Assembly (NCBI RefSeq): GCF_001310085.1
Contig: NZ_CP012643.1
Span: 651,001 to 715,000 of the forward strand
DNA: 64,000 bases
Source of the DNA: Rufibacter tibetensis
GTDB lineage: Bacteria > Bacteroidota > Bacteroidia > Cytophagales > Hymenobacteraceae
Direction of reading: 5' to 3'
Both the position numbers and the translations under genes were made by a program. Below are positions 51,930 through 64,000 of the stretch, piece after piece. The notes under the pieces are model-generated. The model worked only from the letters and a program-made list of their open reading frames with translations. It was not told where the DNA came from and did not search any database. Position 1 is the stretch's first letter. The number at the start of each line of letters is the position of its first letter.

Positions 51930-53777
51930 CTAACTTCTCAGAAACAGGTCCTGCAACTGCTCGGTCTGCAGAATGACCAACGTTTTCTGGCCACTTGGCG
52001 TGTAGTTAGGTACCTGGCACCCAAACAACCGGTCTACCAACGCATTCATTTCCTGATCACTCAACCTGCCAGTTAAACGTGACGCAACCCGCTTGGCCAT
52101 AGAACGGGCCAGGTTCTCCTGGCGGTCTACTTTCATAGTCGAGAGGTTATTCTTGTACTGCTCCAGCAAGCCTTCTATCAATTCCTTTTCATCGCGCAAC
52201 GGAATCTCGGCCGGAATGCCGTTCACCACAAGGGTATTGTTCCCGAAGTCATTGAACACGAACCCTAGAGCCGTAAATTCTTCAGACAACTCCATCACCA
52301 AAGAAAAGTCGGCGGGCGAAAGTTGCAAGGTCTGAGGAAAGAGCAGTTGTTGTGAGGCGCCGGTGCGTTTGCCCAAAGCCTGACTGTATTTCTCGTACAG
52401 AATACGCTCTTGGGCGGCTTGTTGGTCCACCACCATCAAACCAGATTTCACCTGTACCATCAAATACTTCTGGTGCACCTGCAAGGTCTTGGAACCGCTG
52501 GTCATGCTGGTTTTAGCAGGAGCAAACGTATCTTCCTCCTCGGGGAACAGGTTGCTGTGGTCCTCAGTGTTGGCCCGAGATACCTCTCGGGTTGGCGCTA
52601 CCTCTGGGTAACTCCCTCCTCTCCCGCCGCTTGAGGCGCGGGAAGGAAACGTGTTTGATTCATTCATCTTAGAAGAGGCTCTTGGTGCTAACGCCGGTGC
52701 GGTTTCAAAATCCATGGAAGCCGGAAACTTCATGGGCTGTAACGGCATATAGTTCACATCGGCCCCGAAGTCCAGGGACGGGGCGATGTTGTGCAGCCCT
52801 AGGCTCTGTTTCACGGCCGCGCGCACAATGGCATAGACGGTTTTCTCGTCTTCAAACTTAATCTCCGTTTTGGTGGGATGCACATTGATGTCAATCGTTT
52901 CCGGAGCAATTTCCAGAAACAAGACGTAAAACGGAAAGCTGTCTTTAGGCAGCAAGCCCTCAAAAGCAGTGAGCACCGCGTGGTTCAGGTACTGGCTTTT
53001 GATGTAGCGGTTGTTCACGAAGAAGAACTGCTCGCCGCGGCTTTTTTTAGCAAACTCCGGCTTTCCAATGTAGCCGCGTACCGTCAGAAACGGGGTGGTT
53101 TCCTCACATGCCGCCATCTGTTCTTTGTACTCTTTCCCGAAAATGCTCACTATACGCTGGCTCAGTTTACCGGCGGGCAGGTTCATCACTTCCACTTCGT
53201 TCTGGTACAAGGCAAACGCAATCTCGGGGTTCGCCAAAGCCACCCGCTGGAATTCATCCAGGATGTGACGCATCTCCACGGGGTTGCTTTTCAGGAAATT
53301 TCGGCGGGCGGGTACGTTGAAGAAAAGGTTCTTCACGCTGACCACTGTTCCTTCAGCCATGGCCACCGGCTCCTGCTTGATCACCTCGTTTCCTTCAATG
53401 GTGAGGCAGGTACCCAGCTCAGAGCCGCGGGCACGAGTTTTCATCTCCACCTGGGCCACGGCCGCAATGGACGCCATCGCCTCGCCCCGGAATCCCATGG
53501 TTTTAATGCGGAAAAGGTCTTCAGTGGATTTTATTTTAGAGGTGGCGTGGCGCTCAAAGCACATGCGGGCGTCAGTTTCGGTCATGCCTACCCCGTCGTC
53601 CACTACCTGAATGAGCTGCTTGCCCGCGTCTTTAATGATCAAGGTTACGCTGCTACTGCGTGCGTCTACGCTATTCTCCAACAACTCCTTTACCACAGAG
53701 GCCGGGCGCTGCACCACCTCGCCGGCGGCGATCTGGTTGGCCAGGTACTCAGGTAATAAACGGATGATATCTGCCAT
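51930..53777 (-). CDS. mutL: DNA mismatch repair protein MutL
   Basis: 615 aa from the ATG at 53777 (MADIIRLLPEYLANQIAAGEVVQRPASVVKELLENSVDA), which matches the family start better than the Met six codons earlier at 53795. GHKL ATPase motifs: ELLENSVDA, VVDDGVGM, ATSKI and GFRGEAMASIAAV. The second half of the ATPase module is seen in NVHPTKTEIKF. The C-terminal dimerisation domain contains DQQAAQERILYEKY and a final GCQVPNYTPSGQ. No D-Q-H-A-x2-E-x4-E endonuclease motif is intact (D-Q-Q-A-A-Q-E-R). This is seen in other Bacteroidota MutL and suggests an E. coli-like non-nicking or altered form. Confidence 0.94.
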   Translation of the reverse strand: MADIIRLLPEYLANQIAAGEVVQRPASVVKELLENSVDARSSSVTLIIKDAGKQLIQVVDDGVGMTETDARMCFERHATSKIKSTEDLFRIKTMGFRGEAMASIAAVAQVEMKTRARGSELGTCLTIEGNEVIKQEPVAMAEGTVVSVKNLFFNVPARRNFLKSNPVEMRHILDEFQRVALANPEIAFALYQNEVEVMNLPAGKLSQRIVSIFGKEYKEQMAACEETTPFLTVRGYIGKPEFAKKSRGEQFFFVNNRYIKSQYLNHAVLTAFEGLLPKDSFPFYVLFLEIAPETIDINVHPTKTEIKFEDEKTVYAIVRAAVKQSLGLHNIAPSLDFGADVNYMPLQPMKFPASMDFETAPALAPRASSKMNESNTFPSRASSGGRGGSYPEVAPTREVSRANTEDHSNLFPEEEDTFAPAKTSMTSGSKTLQVHQKYLMVQVKSGLMVVDQQAAQERILYEKYSQALGKRTGASQQLLFPQTLQLSPADFSLVMELSEEFTALGFVFNDFGNNTLVVNGIPAEIPLRDEKELIEGLLEQYKNNLSTMKVDRQENLARSMAKRVASRLTGRLSDQEMNALVDRLFGCQVPNYTPSGQKTLVILQTEQLQDLFLRS

Positions 53778-53918
53778 ACTATCTTCCTTCTTCATTATAT
53801 ACCCAAATTTGACAGAAAACGATGTTTTCTAAAGAGTCTGAAATTACTTCACCCTCCCTTTCACCCGCAAGTTATTTTAACTAATTTCACTCCGACAATA
53901 ACAAGGACTAGGAATGAT

Positions 53919-55253
53919 ATGATTAACCTTACCCTGCGGGTCACCGTCACCCTAGACAAAAAACGACGGAAAGGCCCTGAGTACCCCATCATCCTGCGCG
54001 TGCGCCTGGGGCGCAGCGAGGAGTTCACCGTCAATACGGGCCGCATAAGCGAAGAGGCGAAGTTCGACAATGGCCGCATCAAAGGCAAATCTTATCAGGC
54101 CAATGAGGATAATGCGCATATTGCACGCCTCAAAGCCCGGATTGAGAATACCTGGCATGACATGGTGCAAGCCAATGGTGGATTCCCCGTCCGCCTCCCC
54201 GACTTCCGTGTCCGGCTTGAAGAGGAAGCAGGCGTGAGCCGCAAACCCAAGACAAGCAATATCGACCTTATTCAACTTATAGGTCAATATGTACAGGAAC
54301 GGCATGCTGAATTGAGGCCTGGCACCTTGGACCAGATGCGAACTACCGTGACCATACTGGAGTCTTTCCTTTCCCACCACAAGCACGCAGGCCGCTACTC
54401 ATCGGAATTACGTAAGTTCGACTTCGATACGTACACCGCTCTCCGAAATTTCCTGGTGAGTGATTATCGGGGAATCAAGAAACGCGCCATGACCAATGCC
54501 TCCGTCAACACACGTCTGGCAAATCTAAAAGCAATGATCCGCTACTATTACGACAACGGCACCCCTGAGATCCGATCACAGATCAACTTGGACTTCATGC
54601 GCTTCAAACCTTTCAAGAGCGTGCTGAAGCAGCGGCAGGCGCTGAAGGAGGAGGAGGTGAATCAGCTCTGGGCCGAGGATCTCTCCGATGCCCCGCACCT
54701 GGAACGGGTACGCGATCTCTACATTTTCTGCTGTTTCACCGGCCTGAGACATGGTGATGCTGTTTCACTTAACAGAACGAATATAACACCTACCGGACCG
54801 GACCAGTTTGAGTTGCGATGGTACATGGGCAAGACCATGAAACCCAACTCAGTACCGCTCGTGGGCCCGGCACTTGAGATTATTTCCAAATACCGGGACA
54901 GGTACGTAACGCTGCTCCCTCCGCTCAAGAACAATCGTACGAGCGCCAACCTGCCTAAGCTATGGAGACGAATGGTATCCCGGATGCCTTCCCTGGCTGA
55001 AGTGGTCGAGGTGATTGACCAGAAAGGCAACATCCGCGAGGTCAAGCGAATGCCACGCTATGAGGCGCTGAACTTTCATACCTCGCGCCATACCTATGCC
55101 CGCATGCTGTTGGCCAAGGGTGCCCCTACTGAGCACGTGAAGGAAATGCTTGGCCAAAGCGACATCCGTACAACACAGATCTACGCCAAGACGAATGTGC
55201 AGATGGCAATCTCCTCCACGAGGCTTTTGCTTGAAATGGCAAAAAGAAAGTAA
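53919..55253 (+). CDS. Tyrosine-type site-specific integrase
   Basis: 444-aa recombinase of mobile elements. N-terminal arm-binding domain (INLTLRVTVTLDKKRRKGPEYPIILRVRL), a core-binding SAM-like domain at about 115-225, then the catalytic domain. Arg277 is in FTGLRHGDAVSL, Lys305 in MGKTMKP, H-x-x-R at 387-390 (HTSRH), and the nucleophile Tyr422 in TTQIYAKT. The usual second His before the Tyr is Gln here (EMLGQSDIRTTQ), a known variant position. It is the first gene after mutL, so the junction near 53.85-53.92 kb is one edge of an integrated element. It has its own terminator. Confidence 0.93.
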   Translation: MINLTLRVTVTLDKKRRKGPEYPIILRVRLGRSEEFTVNTGRISEEAKFDNGRIKGKSYQANEDNAHIARLKARIENTWHDMVQANGGFPVRLPDFRVRLEEEAGVSRKPKTSNIDLIQLIGQYVQERHAELRPGTLDQMRTTVTILESFLSHHKHAGRYSSELRKFDFDTYTALRNFLVSDYRGIKKRAMTNASVNTRLANLKAMIRYYYDNGTPEIRSQINLDFMRFKPFKSVLKQRQALKEEEVNQLWAEDLSDAPHLERVRDLYIFCCFTGLRHGDAVSLNRTNITPTGPDQFELRWYMGKTMKPNSVPLVGPALEIISKYRDRYVTLLPPLKNNRTSANLPKLWRRMVSRMPSLAEVVEVIDQKGNIREVKRMPRYEALNFHTSRHTYARMLLAKGAPTEHVKEMLGQSDIRTTQIYAKTNVQMAISSTRLLLEMAKRK

Positions 55254-55280
55254 AGGGGGCATCATCGTCCCTTTACTTTC
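55246..55280 (+). terminator. Terminator overlapping the integrase stop
   Basis: GAAAGTAAAGGG pairs perfectly with CCCTTTACTTTC. The left arm includes the integrase stop codon. Confidence 0.75.
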
Positions 55281-55315
55281 ATGGTTGTCACCCAGCATTC
55301 CAGCCCTACGCACCC

Positions 55316-57463
55316 TTGTCGTGTTTTCAGCCGGACCAGTGGTTCAACAGCCAATATTATGACAGCTGCGCATTCAAGGCTGAATGTGGGTGCCCTCATG
55401 TGCTATTACTTCGTATCGCAGCAAACGAGCAGATCGGGAAGGAGTTCCGCCTGCTGGCCAAGGCCAAGGAGCAGCTGGAGCGTTCCGACGAGCACATGGA
55501 CTACCGCGCGCTGAACACGGACATGACGCTGGGCGACCTGGAGGCCTGGGTGAAAAGCCAGGGCGAGTACTTCAACTCGCAGATGAACTGGGTGTTCAAG
55601 ACGATCCAGGACTACATGGAGCGCGTGAAGCACCGCTACATGCGCGAGTACATGCCGGGCAAGAACAAGTTCTTCGACGAGTACCACAAAGCCTGGGAGG
55701 CGGACGCGGCGAACGGCGCGGGCGCCGGGCGCTACACGCTCAACGACGCGACGGTCTACTACGAGAACCTGTTCAAGACCTACACCGGCGTGGACCCGCA
55801 GGGCAACGAGGTGGCCTTCAACAACTACGAGCTCAAGGATGAGTCCGATCCGAGCCTGCGCGCCTACGAGAGGGCGTTCATCAAGAACGTCAAGGCCGAG
55901 GTTGAGAAATCGGTGAAGGCCATCGTGGCCAAGAAGATCAAGGACGGCGAGATCGCCAACTACGCGTCGGCCGACGCCTGGTACGAGGACAACTACCGCG
56001 GGCAGGAGGGTTTGCTGCCGATCGTGACCGCCAACATGGGCGAGCGCCTGGCCAAGGGCAGCGTGAAGGGCGGCATCAACGCCTACGTGGAGCAGAACAC
56101 GAACTTCAACAACCTGTCGCTGGGCACGGAGAAGAACCTGAACCGCCGCAACGCCGCCGGGCTGGCCACGGCCAACATCGGCACGGGCTTCGGTTCCTAC
56201 GAGCGCATCGGGCGCCTGGGCCTGTCCATGGAGGGCGAGAAGGTCGTGGTGGCCGACCCGGGCCGCAACGCGAGCGGCTCCACGGACGTGCAGACCCTGC
56301 TCGACTACTTCGTCTACATGAACATGAAGATGGAGCACGAGGCGGAGTTCACCACGGTGCACGCGGCCGCCAAGACGATCCTCCTGACCCAGGAGGTGCG
56401 GGCGGGCAAGGACCGCGAGAACGAGCTCAAGACGCTGGACGCGGTCTTCGACCTGCTCATCTACAACGAGCGGCAGGAGATCCAGGCGGCCGGCAGGCTC
56501 AACCTGGCCAAGGTGGCCGACACCCTCAGGAACGTGACGACGGGGGCGACCCTTTCCTTCAACCTCCAGTCGGCGTTCCTGGCCACGTTCGGGGATATGT
56601 ACTCGATGTACTCGAACGCGCTGGCCAAGCGCTACGGGAAGGCCTTCTTCGGCGCCGGCGACCTCAACAAGGCGCTGGGGCTCATGGCCTCGGACAACAA
56701 GAAGTTCAACGATTTGATCGACCTGTTCCTTTTCCAGGACATGGACGAGAGCGCGCTGATCTTCTCCGACAAGTACAAGGAGGGCTACAAGGGCGTGGCC
56801 AAGTCGCGCTACTCGCGGATCCAGCAGCACATGGGCGAGCGGATGGTCAGGGGCATGCTCCTGGTCTCGCAGCTCTACCACGACGGGCTGGTCGACAAGT
56901 TCAGCTACGACGAGAACGGCCAGCTGTCCTACGACTGGAGCAGGGACGAGCGCGGCGCGATCGGCCAGACGATCCTTGCCAAGGTCCAGAGGCGCGGCAC
57001 GGAGTTCCTGCCGTACGATGACGTGATGCTGCGCTCGCTGAGCGCCATCGCGGGCAAGATGTACGGCGCCTTCAACGACGCCGAGCGCGGCCGGATGGAC
57101 ACCAACGCCATCGTGCAGTTCTTCGGGCAGTTCCGCAAGTTCATCGTGGCCCGGGGCAACGAGCTGCTGAGCCGCGGCTTCGAGAACGAGAACATCCGCT
57201 GGTACGAGATGATCGAGGAGGAAGGCGCGCAGAAAGTGAACGTGCGGCTGTTCTACCAGGAGGGGATCTACCAGTCCGTGGTGCACCTGTTCAAGGAGAG
57301 CAGGCGCCTGAGCGGGCAGGATGCGTCGGCGTGGCAGAGCATGCGCCCTGAGCAGCGGGCCAACATCCGCAAGCTGTATGATTATGTGACGGAGGGAGAG
57401 CTGCTAGAAGGAATCAAAGCTGACTGGATTGAATCCAGTCAGCTTTTGCTAAGCAGGGCTTAA
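55316..57463 (+). CDS. Fragment of a large phage- or mobile-element protein (unrecognised), strongly GC-rich
   Basis: 715 codons without a stop. The only in-frame upstream start is a TTG at 55316. The segment from about 55430 to 57360 is much richer in G and C, with third positions nearly all G or C, unlike all neighbours. Predicted protein is mostly helical and charged, with WVKSQGEYFNSQMNWVFKTI, YYENLFKTYTGVDPQGNEVAF, a hydrophobic Gly/Ser stretch (ATLSFNLQSAFLATFGDMYSMYSNALAKRYG) and QFFGQFRKFIVARGNELLSRG. This style resembles internal pieces of giant virion or polyvalent proteins of Bacteroidota phages and conjugative elements. That is only a resemblance. The first ~33 residues (CFQPDQWFNSQYYDSCAFKAECG) have ordinary base composition and may belong to something else. 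Confidence 0.45.
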   Translation: MSCFQPDQWFNSQYYDSCAFKAECGCPHVLLLRIAANEQIGKEFRLLAKAKEQLERSDEHMDYRALNTDMTLGDLEAWVKSQGEYFNSQMNWVFKTIQDYMERVKHRYMREYMPGKNKFFDEYHKAWEADAANGAGAGRYTLNDATVYYENLFKTYTGVDPQGNEVAFNNYELKDESDPSLRAYERAFIKNVKAEVEKSVKAIVAKKIKDGEIANYASADAWYEDNYRGQEGLLPIVTANMGERLAKGSVKGGINAYVEQNTNFNNLSLGTEKNLNRRNAAGLATANIGTGFGSYERIGRLGLSMEGEKVVVADPGRNASGSTDVQTLLDYFVYMNMKMEHEAEFTTVHAAAKTILLTQEVRAGKDRENELKTLDAVFDLLIYNERQEIQAAGRLNLAKVADTLRNVTTGATLSFNLQSAFLATFGDMYSMYSNALAKRYGKAFFGAGDLNKALGLMASDNKKFNDLIDLFLFQDMDESALIFSDKYKEGYKGVAKSRYSRIQQHMGERMVRGMLLVSQLYHDGLVDKFSYDENGQLSYDWSRDERGAIGQTILAKVQRRGTEFLPYDDVMLRSLSAIAGKMYGAFNDAERGRMDTNAIVQFFGQFRKFIVARGNELLSRGFENENIRWYEMIEEEGAQKVNVRLFYQEGIYQSVVHLFKESRRLSGQDASAWQSMRPEQRANIRKLYDYVTEGELLEGIKADWIESSQLLLSRA
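57416..57446 (+). terminator. Perfect hairpin inside the 3' end of the GC-rich frame
   Basis: AAAGCTGACTGGATT and AATCCAGTCAGCTTT are perfect 15-nt arms around one G, followed by TTGCT. It looks like a terminator but lies before the stop at 57461, so the listed stop may not be the native end of the gene. Confidence 0.6.
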
Positions 57464-57496
57464 CACTAACTATCCTTTTTCCGGAGTCAGGAAGGT

Positions 57497-58453
57497 TTAA
57501 TTTACAAAGGCTAACACAGGAAGATAATCCTGGGTAATACCAGATACTTTCAGCAAAGGAATTATCTGCTCTAACTCTAATAAATCCCGGAGAATGATCA
57601 AGTTTATTCCAGGCTCCCCATCCGGATCTTCAAATTCGTATCGGTCGTCCGGAACATGTAAACCGTCTCCAAAGTCCACGACATAATCATTAGCATAAAG
57701 CCATGCTAAATAAATAAAGCTTTTAATGTAATCTTCTGCACATTCACTCACCACGTAATATTTGTCCAGGTGTTTTTTACACGCCTCAATAATTGAGTCT
57801 GGAATTGCTTCGTACACAAACTCTCTAAATTCGATTTCCTCCTTATCTATCCCCTTTTCACTGATCACCTGATCCACATACTCAATAAATTGTTGATGGG
57901 CCAGTGCTTGTGCCAAAGGCTGATTTTCCAAATACAATTGCTCATCCTCTGTAGAAAAAAAAGGAAGATTATTATTCCAGTAAGCTACTATCTGCCCCTC
58001 GGACAGTTCAACAAAACTTAAGTTTAGGAGCTTATTCAACAAAAAGTTGTATCCGTCCCCTGTAGTTAGCGTTTCCAAATACCCGTTATCATGGACAAGC
58101 ACTACCTCCATCATATCACCCATTGCTGGAAAAACATCTTTTTCTTTGATCAGGGAATAAACCAGTTCTATGTATACCCAGTCTTTTGAGTGAATGCCAA
58201 ACTCAGACCTGTACCGCGGCTTATCATTACTCCCATCATGTTGTTTGTACAACAGGAAGCTTGCCGAAAGAACCGGTTCAATAATAACCTTATTAAGGGT
58301 AGCTGAAAAGAACCCATAATATTCATCTTCCCTGAAGCCAAACAAGGAATCAGAATGCTCCCATACCGCGTCATACACGCAGGGCAGAACTTCCTCTGAA
58401 CCTCTTTTCAACCCAAACTTCTGATTGTTCTCAACTAAGGTGTAACCGTTCAT
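57497..58453 (-). CDS. Hypothetical protein with WG-repeat-like N-terminus (318 aa), third gene of the sigma-54 operon
   Basis: Unrecognised cytoplasmic protein. The first 70 residues read like WG/KWG repeats (NNQKFGLKRGSEEVLPCVYDAVW, EDEYYGFFSATLNKVIIEPVL). The rest is acidic alpha/beta (FVYEAIPDSIIEACKKHLDKYYVVSECAEDYIKSFIYLAWLY), with an Asp/Glu-rich patch (FGDGLHVPDDRYEFEDPDGE). No signal peptide, membrane helix or catalytic motif stands out. It is the last of three minus-strand genes (205, 114 and 318 aa) that follow a sigma-54 promoter. The 98-nt gap after the 114-aa gene shows no terminator. Confidence 0.7.
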   Translation of the reverse strand: MNGYTLVENNQKFGLKRGSEEVLPCVYDAVWEHSDSLFGFREDEYYGFFSATLNKVIIEPVLSASFLLYKQHDGSNDKPRYRSEFGIHSKDWVYIELVYSLIKEKDVFPAMGDMMEVVLVHDNGYLETLTTGDGYNFLLNKLLNLSFVELSEGQIVAYWNNNLPFFSTEDEQLYLENQPLAQALAHQQFIEYVDQVISEKGIDKEEIEFREFVYEAIPDSIIEACKKHLDKYYVVSECAEDYIKSFIYLAWLYANDYVVDFGDGLHVPDDRYEFEDPDGEPGINLIILRDLLELEQIIPLLKVSGITQDYLPVLAFVN

Positions 58454-58551
58454 AGCTATAAGGGATTAGGCTGATTTGACTAGAATACAAACTACTTTTT
58501 TAGTATATACCAAGTTCATTTATGACAAAAAATAAGAGGACACAGGTATAA

Positions 58552-58896
58552 CTAGGCTTCTTCCTCTTCATCGGTTTCCACCTGAACCATGTACATCGTA
58601 TTCCAAACTTGCCCATAAGCACCATATTTATCACGTTGCAAGGGAGTGTCTGCAATCATGTTTTTGAAGTTGTCATAGTCGATGGACTCTGCAAGCTTTT
58701 GGAAAATAGCGGGGATGCTCTTTGCACCCACAATTACCCTGTACCGGTAGTCTGCAGATGGCCATACCTGGATAGGCTCCACCAGTTCAGCCGCAGTTAA
58801 GAGCTGCTCCAAATCTTGTTTTACCCTTGCCCTCACATGAAACCCCTCTTCCTTTACCACAATTGAGAAAAATCCGTATTTTGATGCTATCCACAT
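58552..58896 (-). CDS. Small conserved protein of unknown function (114 aa), second gene of the sigma-54 operon
   Basis: Begins MWIASKYGFFSIVVKEEGFH and shows V-R-A-R, then D-Y-R-Y-R-V, then Y-D-N-F-K, then Y-G-x-V-W-x-x-M-Y-x-V-Q. From memory, a similar pattern (MWxFTxYGFFS..., VRAR, DYRYRI, NFK, VWxxMY) occurs in widespread small hypothetical proteins, including many actinobacterial ones, so this looks like a broadly conserved family without an assigned role. The tail is acidic (ETDEEEEA). It lies 57 nt after the 205-aa gene. Confidence 0.75.
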   Translation of the reverse strand: MWIASKYGFFSIVVKEEGFHVRARVKQDLEQLLTAAELVEPIQVWPSADYRYRVIVGAKSIPAIFQKLAESIDYDNFKNMIADTPLQRDKYGAYGQVWNTMYMVQVETDEEEEA

Positions 58897-58953
58897 ATTT
58901 TTATAGTTTTGTTTTGTTTCAAATTAATTGACCTGCTCTCGCTGGAGTACTTT

Positions 58954-59571
58954 TCACAAGCATGTGTCTATAGCAAAGTGTCCTCCACCATACACTATGT
59001 AATGCCATTTCACCTGCTCGTCCTTCACCATTGGAAATAAAGCCAGGTACTCCTCTTGGGCACTTACTGCTACCTTGGAAAGCTTTTGCCCAAGTATTTC
59101 TTTGTACTGCTCCTGTTCAGCTTCCTCCAAAACAGGCAGTATGAGAATTTTCAGGACACCTTCCGACTTCATCAGCTTAGGCAAAACCCGCTTCAATTCG
59201 GCTGTGTCATGCACACGGGCAAATTGCAATACATCTACATCATCAAGCGCCTGCCGTACAACTCCAGCCTCTTCATCATGGTATTCCTGCTCGGGCTCTA
59301 ACGCGTAACCGGTTAAGTCAAAGTTTGAAAAATAATCAGTGGCAGCAATGTCCAACTTTTCACGTAGGCAATGCACCAACAACGTCTGCCCTATCACCTG
59401 GTAGTTATTGGCGTACAAGAGGTAATTCAGCCAATTGCTATTCCCTTTCTCATACTTCTGAAGCGCTGTTTTAACAATGCCACTCTCTTGAGCTAGTTCG
59501 TTAAAGCTCTTCCACATTTCTAAAAATTTGTTTGCGTCTACTTGCGTTGTAATGCTCTTTTCCATATTCAT
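58954..59571 (-). CDS. Hypothetical protein (205 aa), first gene of the sigma-54 operon
   Basis: Unrecognised acidic cytoplasmic protein (MNMEKSITTQVDANKFLEMW). The second Met (59565) is an alternative start. Mostly helical with a segment LQKYEKGNSNWLNYLLYANNYQVIGQTLLVHCLREK, an acidic middle (EPEQEYHDEEAGVVRQALDDVD) and a C-terminal KWHYIVYGGGHFAIDTCL. No known motif. The gene follows a near-consensus sigma-54 promoter by about 100 nt and faces the gene of a sigma-54 activator, so it is probably under that regulator. Confidence 0.7.
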   Translation of the reverse strand: MNMEKSITTQVDANKFLEMWKSFNELAQESGIVKTALQKYEKGNSNWLNYLLYANNYQVIGQTLLVHCLREKLDIAATDYFSNFDLTGYALEPEQEYHDEEAGVVRQALDDVDVLQFARVHDTAELKRVLPKLMKSEGVLKILILPVLEEAEQEQYKEILGQKLSKVAVSAQEEYLALFPMVKDEQVKWHYIVYGGGHFAIDTCL

Positions 59572-59681
59572 ATAAGTTTAAGTACTTGTCTACTCCAAAA
59601 GCATTATCGCTTTGGTCTATTGATTCTAATTTTGATTCTAATCTTAGCCATGTTGAGATAAGGTATATGTGATAAGAGATT

Positions 59682-59697
59682 TGCAAAGGCCATGCCA
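59682..59697 (-). promoter_or_regulatory. Sigma-54 promoter (-24 TGGCAT / -12 TTGCA)
   Basis: On the minus strand the site reads TGGCATGGCCTTTGCA, against the consensus TGGCAC-N5-TTGCA. GG and GC are 10 nt apart, as required. Predicted start is near 59672, about 100 nt before the 205-aa gene. Confidence 0.8.
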
Positions 59698-59808
59698 GTG
59701 GAGAAAAGGCGCTTAAACCACTAATTTGAGACCCTTCATCTATCAATCATATTGCATCCCATATCATTAATTGATATAATTACATTACCCATTACTACTG
59801 TAAGCATA

Positions 59809-59821
59809 GGTTCTCAGAACC
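59809..59821. promoter_or_regulatory. Perfect palindrome GGTTCT-C-AGAACC, candidate activator site
   Basis: Lies about 112-139 nt upstream of the sigma-54 promoter, a usual distance for enhancer-like activator sites, and about 50 nt before the activator gene. Binding by the activator is an inference. Confidence 0.45.
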
Positions 59822-59872
59822 CGTCAACCCTTATAATTTTAATCACAAATTTTTATACATTTTCCTTCTTTT

Positions 59873-61405
59873 ATGAGTCAACCTATACTATTCTCCTGGA
59901 TTGCCTGGAACAATGATTATGAATATAAAACCAACAATGTAGACCCCAAAGGGCCAAACAATACCATACATCAGCACTTCTACCCGAAGCAAAAGTACCA
60001 GAAGCATTACCTGCTTACCTCAGCTGCTTCAAGAGAGGCAGATGGTGGCAGAAGTGAGAAATTAGCTAAGTACCTGAACCACCAGTATGCAGATGAGAAG
60101 CATAAGGTTGAACTCCTATACCTGGACATTGAAAACGTGATTGACCCTGAGGAGATCATCTCGAAAGTACAGCCCTTGTTGTTTGAACAGAGAGCGCATG
60201 AAGTGCATGCTTTCATCTCCACGGGCACGCCCATGATGCAGGTGGCATGGGTGTCATTGTACATGGCGAAGGCAATACCCCACCTAAGACTGATCCAAGG
60301 AGTAGAAGCTTCTAAAACAAAAAGTAAATTCCCTGAATTTAATTTCAGGGAATTTACCCAATCACAGGGAGTACGGGCTCTATTTGTAAAGTCAACAGAA
60401 TCTATCCATTTCCCGGAGTCTGACGAAGGCTTTTTTGAAGCAGAGATCCTTAAACCAATCTACAAGAAAGCAGCCATGGCGGCCGCTGTGCCTAAGCGGG
60501 AGATCTCTGTTCTTATACAAGGAGAAAGCGGCACCGGGAAAGAACACCTGGCCCAGTTCATGCACCAGGCATCTGCCAGAAAAAACAAAAAATTCATAGC
60601 GGTCAACTGCGCCTCCATGGGAGACCACTTACTGGAATCCAGGTTATTTGGGTATGTCAAAGGAGCCTTCACAGATGCCCGGGAAGACTGCAAGGGCTAC
60701 TTTGAAGACTGTGACGGTGGCACCCTCTTTTTGGATGAGATTGGAGATACCAGTCCCCAATTCCAACAAAGTCTGCTACGAGTGTTACAAGAGGGGGTAA
60801 TTACGAGGGTTGGCAGCACTACACCAATCAAGGTAGATGTGAAAACCATTGCGGCTACGCATAAACACTTAAAAAGCCTTTGTGAGGAGAGCAAATTCAG
60901 ATGGGATCTCTACTATAGATTAACCACCGTAGAATTAAAATTACCTCCACTTAGGCACTATGCTAAGAACGACCGTGAAGGAATTTTAAACCACCTGATC
61001 AGCAGCCGTGCCGATTTTTTCGAGAAGAAACCTTTAGAACTTTCCAAGGAGGTAAAGACCGCTTTTATGAAATACTCCTTCCCCGGCAACATTCGGGAAC
61101 TGCAGCACATGATAGACAGGTGCTACATATTCTGCGAGGATGAAGCTGCTTTACAGGAAATTCCAGAGGAAATTACCCGCAACCCCCAAGAGTTCTCCTG
61201 GAAGATGGATGATATAAAAAAGACACATGTAACCAAAGCCTTAACTTTTTTTGACTACAATCTGTCTCGGACCGCCGATGAACTAGATATTTCCTATAAT
61301 ACTTTGGTTAAACATATAAAAACCATGAAGATAGATACTTCTAAAAGCAAAAATCCACTTGTGAAAGTGGGTAAACGTAAAATAGAAGAAGCTAAATTGG
61401 GATAA
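59873..61405 (+). CDS. Sigma-54-dependent activator with RtcR/CARF-like N-terminal domain
   Basis: 510-aa bacterial enhancer-binding protein. Residues 1-200 form a sensor domain with an S-T-G-T-P-M-M-Q loop (116-123) like the T-T-G-T-x-x-x-Q loop of RtcR and the ligand loop of CARF domains, which bind cyclic or linear oligonucleotides. The AAA+ core has Walker A GESGTGKE (217-224), GAFTDA (264-269) in place of GAFTGA, Walker B FLDEIGD (286-292) and Arg residues in FRWDLYYRL (343, 349). The C-terminal part ends in a Fis-like helix-turn-helix (NLSRTADELDISYNTLVKHIKTM, about 463-485). It is divergent from a three-gene operon with a sigma-54 promoter, its likely target. The best-known relative, RtcR, controls RNA repair; no rtcA/rtcB is present here. 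Confidence 0.88.
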   Translation: MSQPILFSWIAWNNDYEYKTNNVDPKGPNNTIHQHFYPKQKYQKHYLLTSAASREADGGRSEKLAKYLNHQYADEKHKVELLYLDIENVIDPEEIISKVQPLLFEQRAHEVHAFISTGTPMMQVAWVSLYMAKAIPHLRLIQGVEASKTKSKFPEFNFREFTQSQGVRALFVKSTESIHFPESDEGFFEAEILKPIYKKAAMAAAVPKREISVLIQGESGTGKEHLAQFMHQASARKNKKFIAVNCASMGDHLLESRLFGYVKGAFTDAREDCKGYFEDCDGGTLFLDEIGDTSPQFQQSLLRVLQEGVITRVGSTTPIKVDVKTIAATHKHLKSLCEESKFRWDLYYRLTTVELKLPPLRHYAKNDREGILNHLISSRADFFEKKPLELSKEVKTAFMKYSFPGNIRELQHMIDRCYIFCEDEAALQEIPEEITRNPQEFSWKMDDIKKTHVTKALTFFDYNLSRTADELDISYNTLVKHIKTMKIDTSKSKNPLVKVGKRKIEEAKLG

Positions 61406-61798
61406 CCATAATTTCCATATGCTTCCTTTTAGAAAACTGCCAGTTGACGCACCGCTCTTCCTAACTGGCAGTTTTTAAATTTGTCTATCAATAATTGACT
61501 GTGTTTTACAAAGGGCCAATCTATATTCCAACTGCATATCTTAAAAGGTTATCAAGTTTATACATTGTAAATCAGCTCTTTATTTTTGTTAAATAAATTC
61601 CCTTTGCTCACAAGCGATTAATTCCAATTTATCGGCATCTTTTGTGATATTCTTCCTATAGCATTTTACACTTATAATAAAATAACTATGACCTAACCTA
61701 CTCTGCTTTAAGATTTATACCTATTCCATTGCCCGATAAATAAAAACAATACTGAGACCAGTAAACGGGAGTGGCATGTTAAATCTTATCTAAATTTT
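61406..61798. other. 393-nt AT-rich gap before the 171-aa gene
   Basis: Contains the activator terminator and one weak dispersed-repeat-like stretch (61421-61448). A TGGCAT at 61772 was checked as a sigma-54 site, but no GC stands 10 nt after the GG. No gene seen. Confidence 0.5.
61433..61476 (+). terminator. Terminator of the sigma-54 activator gene
   Basis: AAAACTGCCAGTT pairs with AACTGGCAGTTTT around a 17-nt loop, followed by T residues. Confidence 0.85.
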
Positions 61799-62314
61799 AT
61801 GAGCAGAGAAGACTATCTCCACAAGCCAACCATCCGCACCAACCGCTATCTGTACCATGTCACTCCTTTTGACACCCGAGATGCCATAGACCGGCTGGGG
61901 ATTTTATCCCGCAATGATATTGGCCATGGCCCCCGATTTGGCTACCCGCCTGCCGTGTTCGCAAACAACACCTCAGTGGAAGAATACTTTATTTGGTGGC
62001 CCATTGTGGACTACTACTTTGACTACCTGTTCTCAGGCATAGACCCAGACCAGTTACTGTGGGAGTATGACATCTGGGAAATAGACACCAGAATAGCCAA
62101 TACCAAATGGTACGAAGATCCAGGTACTGGCTCCCAAAACAGTTCTGTCTTCGCCTTGGATGACATTCCCCGGGAGGCTATCCGATTGGTTCGGTTGGAA
62201 GGGGCAGAAAGAAGAATCCGATACAGTGATGGAGTAGCCTCTACTTACATCTGGAGCGGCATCACAACCGTGTTGCCCCGCCGGCCCAGGTACTTACTCC
62301 CATGTGTAAGGTAG
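61799..62314 (+). CDS. Hypothetical protein (171 aa), possible ADP-ribosyltransferase-like fold
   Basis: Unrecognised soluble protein. RYLYHVTPFDTRDAIDRLGILSRN resembles the L-Y-H-x-T ... I-x-x-x-G-L start of small ADP-ribosyltransferase-fold proteins (Tpt1/KptA-like and DUF4433-like). It is followed by PAVFANNTSVEEYF, a W/Y/F-rich middle (IWWPIVDYYFDYLF), LLWEYDIWEID, and ALDDIPREAIRLVRL, the last two being strand-like segments often seen in this fold. No catalytic assignment can be made by eye. It starts its own transcript and is followed by a hairpin and then the N-formylglutamate amidohydrolase gene. Confidence 0.5.
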   Translation: MSREDYLHKPTIRTNRYLYHVTPFDTRDAIDRLGILSRNDIGHGPRFGYPPAVFANNTSVEEYFIWWPIVDYYFDYLFSGIDPDQLLWEYDIWEIDTRIANTKWYEDPGTGSQNSSVFALDDIPREAIRLVRLEGAERRIRYSDGVASTYIWSGITTVLPRRPRYLLPCVR

Positions 62315-62322
62315 ACAACAAA

Positions 62323-62353
62323 CTTCCGGCAAGTATCTAATGCTTGCCGGAAG
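62323..62353 (+). terminator. Perfect hairpin between the 171-aa gene and the amidohydrolase gene
   Basis: CTTCCGGCAAG and CTTGCCGGAAG pair perfectly (11 bp) around 9 nt, just after the stop at 62314. There is no T tract, so it may be an attenuator or processing site and not a terminator. Confidence 0.5.
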
Positions 62354-62395
62354 GATTCCAAAATACTCATACTCACCTCTATATAATCTGCATAC

Positions 62396-63139
62396 ATGAA
62401 ACAGCTTATTCTACATATCCCCCATTCGTCTACGAATATCCCTTTGAAGGACGGATATCTTGTCGATGACGAGTTCCTGGAAGCGGAGATGCTGAAACTA
62501 ACTGATTGGCACACCGATGACCTATTTCAATCTGAGGAGGACATTTCCATCATTGCCAATTTCTCCAGAGTCTTCTGCGACCCAGAAAGGTTCTCGGATG
62601 ATGAGCAAGAAGTAATGGCAAAGGTGGGCATGGGCGTATTGTATGAAAGAAGTGATGCTGGTCAGATCATCAGAAGGGTTACTCCAGAACTGAGAGAAAG
62701 GATACTGAACCAATATTATTGGAAACACCACCAACAGTTGAACGAGGCAGTCAGGAGCCAACTTGGAAAGTATGGCCAAACCTTAATCATAGATTGCCAT
62801 TCCTACCCTGACACACCACTGTTGAGAGATTTACACCAGGAGACTGGCAGGCCAGACTTCAATATAGGCACTGACCCCTATCATACCCCACAATCTTTGA
62901 TTGACTTTTCAATAGAGTTCTTTAAAAATAAAGGCTATTCGCTTGGAGTTGACTGGCCCTATAAAGGCTCCATTGTACCTATGGAGTATTATCAGAAGGA
63001 TAAAAGGGTTCAGACAATTATGCTGGAGGTAAATAGGAAGCTTTATTTAAAGGAGCCCTCAAATAATAAGTCAAAAAAATACATGGAGACAAAAGAAGTA
63101 GTAATGGATTATCTACAAGAAATTAAAATCAATTTATAA
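62396..63139 (+). CDS. N-formylglutamate amidohydrolase family protein
   Basis: 247-aa zinc hydrolase of the FGase (HutG-like) family, which removes formyl groups from N-formylglutamate. Residues 7-12 show HIPHSS, then DWHTDDLF (about 38-45), R-V-F-C-D-P-E-R-F and the IIDCHSYPD segment (about 132-140), then MLEVNRKLYL near the end. These are the conserved His, Asp and Arg positions of the family. No histidine degradation genes are near, so it may act on another N-acyl amino acid or be part of the accessory region's function. It sits 81 nt after the preceding gene. Confidence 0.88.
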   Translation: MKQLILHIPHSSTNIPLKDGYLVDDEFLEAEMLKLTDWHTDDLFQSEEDISIIANFSRVFCDPERFSDDEQEVMAKVGMGVLYERSDAGQIIRRVTPELRERILNQYYWKHHQQLNEAVRSQLGKYGQTLIIDCHSYPDTPLLRDLHQETGRPDFNIGTDPYHTPQSLIDFSIEFFKNKGYSLGVDWPYKGSIVPMEYYQKDKRVQTIMLEVNRKLYLKEPSNNKSKKYMETKEVVMDYLQEIKINL

Positions 63140-63307
63140 TTGCAACTACATAAAACTAATTAGCACATCCACACCTGTACAGCGGAATATCAAATGATAC
63201 AAGTCAAGACAAAGTGTTAAGGCTTTTTTTGATCTTAAATTTAATAATATTATAAACTAAATATTATAAATCACTTATATTTAATATCCACCTCTTTATC
63301 TCCATCA

Positions 63308-64000
63308 ATGAGCTTAACCATACTCCGTGCATCAGCTGGCAGTGGCAAAACCTATGCCCTGACCATGAACTACCTGCAGTTACTTCTGGGCCAAAATGAT
63401 CCTTCCTATTTCCGGAGTATACTTGCTGTAACCTTCACCAATAAGGCTACACAGGAAATGAAAACCCGCATTCTGAAGGAATTGGAATTAATTGCTTCCG
63501 GGAAAATAGATAAAGGTATGGGGAAGGTCCTTTTAGAACTCATAAGGATAAAACCCGACGAACTTCAAAACCGAGCTAAAAATGCGTTGGTTAATATCCT
63601 GCATAACTACAGTCATTTTAGCGTCAGCACCATTGATAGCTTTTTCCAGAAAGTAGTCCGTTCTTTTGCGCGCGAAGCGGAATTACCAGCAGGTTATAGG
63701 ATAGAACTGAATACTGCCAAAGTCCTGGAAGATCTAACAGATCAGTTGATGGACAAGGCAGAGCATGATGAGTTCCTGCGGAACTGGCTTGTGAGATTCT
63801 CAACAGAACAGATTAGCCAGGGGAAGTCCTGGGATATTCGTAAAAATCTGCACAAGCTGATTGGAGAAGTAGTCAAAGAGGGGTTTGCGGAACAAGCGGA
63901 AGGCCTGAAAGGACTGTCAAGCGACAGAAGTGTGTCACAAAGATTCCTAAACAGCTTAAGTAAGATCAAGCGGGAGTTTGAAGATGAAATGAGGCGACTT
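63308..64000 (+). CDS. UvrD/RecB-type helicase (3' truncated by the window end)
   Basis: 231 codons open to the last base, so the stop is beyond the window. From the ATG at 63308 it reads MSLTILRASAGSGKTYALTMNYL, with Walker A ASAGSGKT at residues 8-15, motif Ia ILAVTFTNKATQEMKTRIL and VSTIDSFFQKVVRSFAREA. These are the first motifs of superfamily 1A helicases of the AddA/RecB type (double-strand break repair nuclease-helicase). Only the 1A and part of the 1B domain are seen, so nuclease content cannot be judged. Probable core gene and right boundary of the accessory region. Confidence 0.9.
   Translation, partial: MSLTILRASAGSGKTYALTMNYLQLLLGQNDPSYFRSILAVTFTNKATQEMKTRILKELELIASGKIDKGMGKVLLELIRIKPDELQNRAKNALVNILHNYSHFSVSTIDSFFQKVVRSFAREAELPAGYRIELNTAKVLEDLTDQLMDKAEHDEFLRNWLVRFSTEQISQGKSWDIRKNLHKLIGEVVKEGFAEQAEGLKGLSSDRSVSQRFLNSLSKIKREFEDEMRRL

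Follow-up and report, generated by a model that had tools for sequence, protein, structure and literature searches.

The window analysed here, a 64,000-nt stretch of the Rufibacter tibetensis genome, contains the near part of a genomic island and, directly behind the island integrase, a block of very GC-rich DNA (Table 1). The island lies at a gene which, from its sequence, we take to be mutL. In 12 of the 15 congeners (G001-G007 and G010-G014) the mutL 5′ end (~53787) joins the DNA found here at ~107.5-107.8 kb, the two being separated by no more than ~0.3 kb, so that the window genome holds a 53.7-kb island (GC 0.438, integrase at the mutL end) where these relatives have an empty site. As for the remaining congeners, G008 carries at mutL a ~30-kb version of the island (G008:C33, L101-L102) that lacks the block and in which the helicase-nuclease pair and a large share of the far part recur; G015 (L052) has a 2.3-kb insert at the same spot beside mutL; and in G009 the far side did not turn up within the 20 kb covered.

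A terminal integrase and sites that are empty in relatives give the locus the marks of a tyrosine-integrase island that presumably is or was mobile. Because 46 bp of the integrase survive beside mutL in the blockless G008 island, that gene belongs with the island. The initial annotation had described the block as stranded beside an integrase; it does adjoin one, but the integrase goes with the island at mutL and not with a phage. No match to this integrase at E ≤ 1e-40 was found in 58 other relatives; more distant integrases (E 1e-25 to 6e-31) occur in 23 of 203 other family genomes. (T)TCACCCGCAAG repeats near both island ends (53859-53873 and ~107361-107410) are possibly arm-type integrase sites. 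Further cargo beyond that in Table 1 includes an ADP-ribosylglycohydrolase, a large helicase and, in a GC-poor stretch, DISARM-like drmA and drmB (PADLOC); the same stretch holds two large genes (563 and 835 aa) without assignment. The end-placed tyrosine integrase, the empty sites and the DISARM-like and helicase-nuclease cargo liken the island, whose mobility is putative, to integrative defence islands, from which it differs by the phage-gene fragment beside its integrase.

Table 1. Features at the mutL end of the island (positions in the window)
Feature	Position	Strand	Remarks
mutL	51930-53795	-	Present in 16/16 genus genomes; island inserted at its 5′ end
CTGCCATA, 8-bp repeat at both island ends	53771-53778 and ~107.5 kb		Short; possible att duplication
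Near part of island	53788-64000		Continues to ~107.5 kb, outside the window
Tyrosine integrase of island, 444 aa	53919-55253	+	Pfam Phage_integrase 2.7e-13, Phage_int_SAM_5 2.5e-7
Hairpin overlapping integrase stop	55246-55280	+	Inverted repeat I4; no T run; absent from terminator-scan list
Mechanical open frame around block	55316-57463	+	First start codon TTG; 715 aa; ends derive from flanking DNA
GC-rich block	55424-57376	+	In-frame fragment, homologue of crassvirus virion cargo protein (crAss001 gp49 type), residues ~790-1395 of ~1,530
Perfect hairpin, 15-bp arms, between block and convergent gene	57416-57446	-	Inverted repeat I1; terminator-like for convergent gene
Convergent island gene, 318 aa	57497-58453	-	No Pfam family
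CARF-AAA-HTH regulator, RtcR type	59873-61405	+	PADLOC RtcR_PspF2 1.7e-135; Pfam; island cargo
Start of UvrD-helicase/PD-(D/E)XK gene pair (63308-69545)	63308-64000	+	Pfam; 80% DNA identity to G008 island

Composition and setting of the block

A change-point scan of third codon positions delimited the block as one segment of 651 codons with GC3 0.971 and a log-odds score of 306.8. Elsewhere in the window, the six frames of 1-55000 and 57500-64000 score 10.6 at best, and seven further 20-kb pieces of this genome reach at most 16.8. The GC content of 55436-57391 is 0.633, against a mean of 0.467 (sd 0.044) and a maximum of 0.545 in 291 overlapping control windows of 1,950 bp, taken from window positions 1-53000, extending slightly past that limit, and from five further sites in the genome. 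The genes adjoining the block have GC3 values of 0.42-0.67. The jump to G/C-rich third positions and the return of the flanks to background, both read off the sequence in the initial annotation, are thus borne out.

The reading frame is unbroken through all 651 block codons. About 36 codons at the start of the mechanical open frame and about 28 at its end are flanking DNA, so the observation that it lacks a normal start was correct: its TTG lies in the flank and there is no start codon at the block boundary, although in-frame ATGs do occur within the block. A 626-aa antisense frame over the block (GC 0.96 at its first positions) simply follows from the G/C third positions.

The block sits between two hairpins. 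That at the integrase stop has a fold z-score of -3.7 (1 of 200 shuffles as good); that of the convergent gene has -6.0 on the minus strand (0 of 200) and is among the sites of a terminator scan that returned 4 in total, against 3.7 from shuffles. An insert between the two would do little harm, making this a plausible neutral site. The convergent gene has a diverged paralogue outside the window (93521-94495) and a relative in the G008 island. There are no sigma-70-like sites on the plus strand from 55000 to the block end, and a pattern that we take to represent Bacteroidota-type promoters has one match in the window, at 58880, where 2 are expected by chance. Across 203 other family genomes, the left-flank DNA (55251-55435) gave just four matches, all of them short (25-37 bp).

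Homology to a crassvirus virion protein

A tblastn search of 50,697 phage records with the block frame gave no match at E ≤ 0.01. At E ≤ 10 it gave 26 records, 25 of them crAss001-like and all matched in one gene, named RNA-polymerase subunit or RNA polymerase; since the gene is the same each time, these amount to about one independent match. The remaining record is the unannotated phage MT835470, whose match covers 56% of the query. Such matches are a lead and not a test.

A profile was tested that was built from 11 full-length relatives, six from the crAss001 group and five from the MT835470 group. Four of the latter five were translated with TAG as glutamine, and of ten IMG/VR loci (L014-L023) two, L016 and L018, were omitted as near copies of L015 and L017. 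The profile matches the block frame in three collinear stretches (46.1 bits). In a test with 500 shuffles and 303 decoy frames, among them gp49 and the frame of the block itself, the block obtained 46.9 bits (E 3e-14) and no shuffle exceeded 5.1. When the profile was split, the block scored 28.4 bits with the MT835470 group (best shuffle 3.4) and 9.8 with the crAss001 group (3.8). The hhalign probability of the block was 98.5 against the 11 cropped relatives, 94.9 against the MT835470 group alone and 27.7 against the crAss001 group alone, with 15 shuffled controls per profile reaching at most 2.8. The two groups have a mutual hhalign probability of 7.8, or 17.0 with the relative from family genome G517 (below) included; they are only marginally alike, and the block resembles both. 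With the G517 relative included, the full profile gives the block 35.0 bits (E 1.3e-10) instead of 46.9; its score against the crAss001 group rises to 12.4 bits and the hhalign probability to 80.8 when that relative is added there.

Pairwise comparison points the same way. Among 1,147 frames of crassvirus regions, BLASTP aligned the block frame with the 1,525-aa MT835470 protein at E 1.2e-7 over 640 columns (block-frame residues 119-687 with residues 788-1395 of 1,529) and with gp49 (1,349 aa) of Bacteroides phage crAss001 at E 0.002. The other 44 proteins of the island and its borders have no match at E ≤ 0.01 in the same frames. Homology to both phage proteins is collinear over ~560-640 aligned columns, and the block and the MT835470 group have in common the segments LxFN, ‘DG..D ... 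YDW..D.R’ and ‘YG’ to ‘Q(F/M)’. The link to the MT835470 group is clear and that to crAss001 gp49 alone weak. A midpoint-rooted tree also groups the block with the MT835470 group, on a very long branch (2.83) for which the program warns of false joining.

MT835470 itself can be assigned to the crassviruses by two hallmark proteins, capsid (Crass_capsid, 4.2e-14) and muzzle (crAss_MUZ, 1.9e-27), at the level of sequence matches; its capsid falls in the same PHROG as that of crAss001. It is a distant crassvirus, because simple tblastn of ten crAss001 proteins (gp44 in a wrong frame) against the MT835470-group loci gave nothing at E ≤ 1e-3.

The block thus encodes a remote homologue (~20% identity) of a crassvirus virion protein, of the gp49 cargo type. 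According to PMC10172136, three cargo proteins associated with RNA polymerase were detected in crAss001 virions, gp49 among them, and gp49 probably has its place inside the capsid; the same paper reports a crystal structure for a gp49 homologue. Among the 11 full-length relatives, PHROG searches matched two to a virion structural family and one to an exonuclease family. Several weak matches were taken as chance: for the block frame, Pfam DUF3106 (E 0.057, which falls short of the family cut-off) and phrog_38570 (E 0.0023, where no single stretch passes), and by sequence in the PDB, a 186-residue chain named serine protease (E 8e-4) and one match at E 0.87. A PDB search with the full-length profile gave nothing meaningful, and the predicted structure of the block protein (mean pLDDT 33.7) was too poor for a fold search.

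The block lacks ~790 N-terminal and ~130 C-terminal residues of an MT835470-type protein. Since the matched stretch is ~790-1395 of ~1,530, both gene ends are missing, and ~40% of the full-length protein is present; gp49-type cargo proteins have ~1,350-1,600 aa with N- and C-terminal parts. The block is accordingly a gene fragment and not a gene. The proposal that it derives from a large phage or mobile-element protein holds insofar as it is a piece of a phage virion protein, but the parent has ~1,350-1,600 residues, not several thousand, and the piece is internal, not C-terminal. In the whole genome the full-length cargo profile found the block only and no second piece of the gene, a Crass_capsid search found no match, and Pfam scans of 36 island proteins found no phage structural family, so that in these scans no capsid or structural gene of a provirus turned up around the block. 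gp49 stands next to the virion RNA-polymerase genes (gp50/gp47) in crAss001 and in the G517 provirus; the block's neighbours are the integrase and the convergent hypothetical gene.

Neither 97 other relatives (at E ≤ 0.01) nor 203 other family genomes or 394 other phylum genomes (at E ≤ 0.001) contain a match to the block protein; homologues of about 700 aa with a normal start in the same context, which the initial annotation had named as evidence against its reading, did not turn up in these three sets. The phylum search with the single sequence gave seven weaker matches (E 0.002-0.09), none of which was accepted as a relative; one, L004, encodes a 243-aa protein judged unrelated by eye. Searching the phylum sample with the cargo-protein profile added one weak match (E 3e-6), within a 5,145-aa frame (L057, G326:C1:958000-958353). 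Plasmids yielded no match at E ≤ 0.01, and scans of IMG/VR (three) and of GTDB genomes by block peptide patterns confirmed no close relative.

An integrated crassvirus in the family and the probable source of the block

A Crass_capsid search of 204 family genomes gave a single match, in G517, and none in 14 control genomes. The matching segment, G517:C24:138685-238151 (L120-L125), has GC 0.536 in a contig of GC 0.637. A 55-bp direct repeat, identical in both copies, delimits it at C24:138685 and C24:238097, a distance of 99.4 kb. The left repeat lies 65 bp after an HSP70 (dnaK-type) gene, and a tyrosine integrase (Pfam 1.7e-11) lies just inside the right one. The segment encodes a capsid (Crass_capsid, 310 bits), a muzzle (crAss_MUZ, 3.8e-29), a portal and other crassvirus matches, and a ~3,670-aa frame with matches to crAss001 gp47 and gp50, behind which lies a homologue of gp49 (E 2e-23). 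It looks like a complete 99.4-kb integrated, possibly temperate crassvirus. This provirus is not the block donor, because it has a gp49 homologue similar to the crAss001 group (100 bits), a GC3 of 0.69 and an integrase unlike that of the island in BLASTP.

The codon usage of the block correlates with that of family members of GC 0.55-0.65 at 0.84 (G025), 0.80 (G020), 0.76 (G029) and 0.75 (G019), and with that of five other members (GC 0.42-0.50) at 0.03-0.52; high-GC hosts are not singled out, however, since G056, at GC 0.51, gives 0.78. Values were 0.26-0.54 for five pieces of its own genome, -0.46 to 0.43 for five crassvirus regions (the TAG-recoded one read by the standard code), and 0.81 and 0.61 for the host part and provirus of G517. 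With GC 0.633, GC3 0.971 and so low a correlation with its own genome, the block has indeed a different origin, as had been claimed. Its GC3 (0.97) also departs from that of the five crassvirus regions (0.19-0.57) and of the G517 provirus (0.69). A crassvirus that infected a high-GC host is the probable donor, and this host perhaps belonged to the same bacterial family.

Probable capture and its alternatives

Any explanation has to cover the homology, the loss of both gene ends, a composition foreign to the genome, the failure to find any further piece of the gene or a capsid gene in that genome, and the surrounding island. We consider it quite probable that the block is a stranded and probably silent fragment of a gp49-type gene, joined non-homologously from a very high-GC crassvirus into the defence island; inert capture from an unsampled crassvirus of this kind is the most likely course of events. 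A high-GC crassvirus would have infected the cell, a piece of phage DNA of ~2 kb would have entered and been joined illegitimately into the island gap between two convergent transcription units, and the piece would have persisted as a silent passenger. The joining seems illegitimate because the block has no integrase of its own and no target duplication is seen by eye. That it is not expressed is suggested by its position after the integrase hairpin, the absence of an upstream promoter-like site on its strand and the absence of a boundary start codon. The capture seems recent, because codon usage has not drifted to that of the host and the frame is unbroken. The intact frame cuts both ways: a dead piece keeps 651 open codons only if young, and a functional gene would keep them too. 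The low identity, about one residue in five by alignment, tells against a crassvirus fragment.

The sharp change of composition at both block edges and the lack of a homologous copy in the other genomes searched might also reflect contaminating phage sequence joined into the contig during assembly. We regard such a chimera as unlikely, since the assembly has 3 contigs for 5.4 Mb with an estimated contamination of 0.11, and the block falls at a plausible neutral site, between the hairpins of convergent genes. Somewhat less probable still is that a crassvirus integrated here and was mostly lost, leaving the fragment and perhaps the integrase. That a crassvirus can be found integrated in another family genome, with a tyrosine integrase and 55-bp repeats, speaks for this; but the island and G517 integrases, which share the Phage_integrase domain, reach a best BLASTP E of only 2.5, the integrase differs from the block in GC3 (0.65 against 0.97), the other island proteins lack crassvirus-frame matches at E ≤ 0.01, and the remnant in the blockless G008 island ties the integrase to the island. 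We therefore set low the idea that it was the phage's own.

The unbroken frame could instead mark a domesticated fragment, expressed as a decoy that interferes with the cargo or virion RNA polymerase of an incoming crassvirus. An island with DISARM-like drmA/drmB and other defence-type genes would be a fitting place for it, and the parent is reported (PMC10172136) to be RNA-polymerase-associated. The missing sigma-70-like site between 55000 and the block end, the lone promoter-pattern match at 58880 (fewer than chance predicts), the lack of a start codon at the block edge, the non-host codon usage and the absence of a copy in 203 other family genomes make this improbable, and it is more improbable yet that an expressed cargo-protein piece jams the early, protein-injecting step of crassvirus infection and so confers virus-derived resistance.

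Crassvirus-like sequences in Bacteroidota chromosomes have been published. PMC7886860 counts 516 close crassvirus-gene matches among complete genomes (325 in Bacteroidetes), some of which might come from prophages; PMC11054128 describes two incomplete crassvirus prophages in Parabacteroides; and a review (PMC10136315) holds that crassviruses seem strictly lytic. Like the cases in the first two, the block appears to be crassvirus-derived DNA in a bacterial chromosome. Those cases either match known crassviruses closely or represent prophage stretches in Parabacteroides, whereas the block is one gene fragment from a distant high-GC lineage within a defence island. In a literature search, mostly by listing, no report was found of such a crassvirus gene fragment, or of a crassvirus with an integrase and att repeats.

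The block points to a crassvirus lineage of extreme GC content, with 97% G/C at third positions. Searches of phage and viral collections did not find this lineage, which may infect the bacterial family studied here. Together with the integrated crassvirus of G517, it makes the possible temperateness of crassviruses directly testable.
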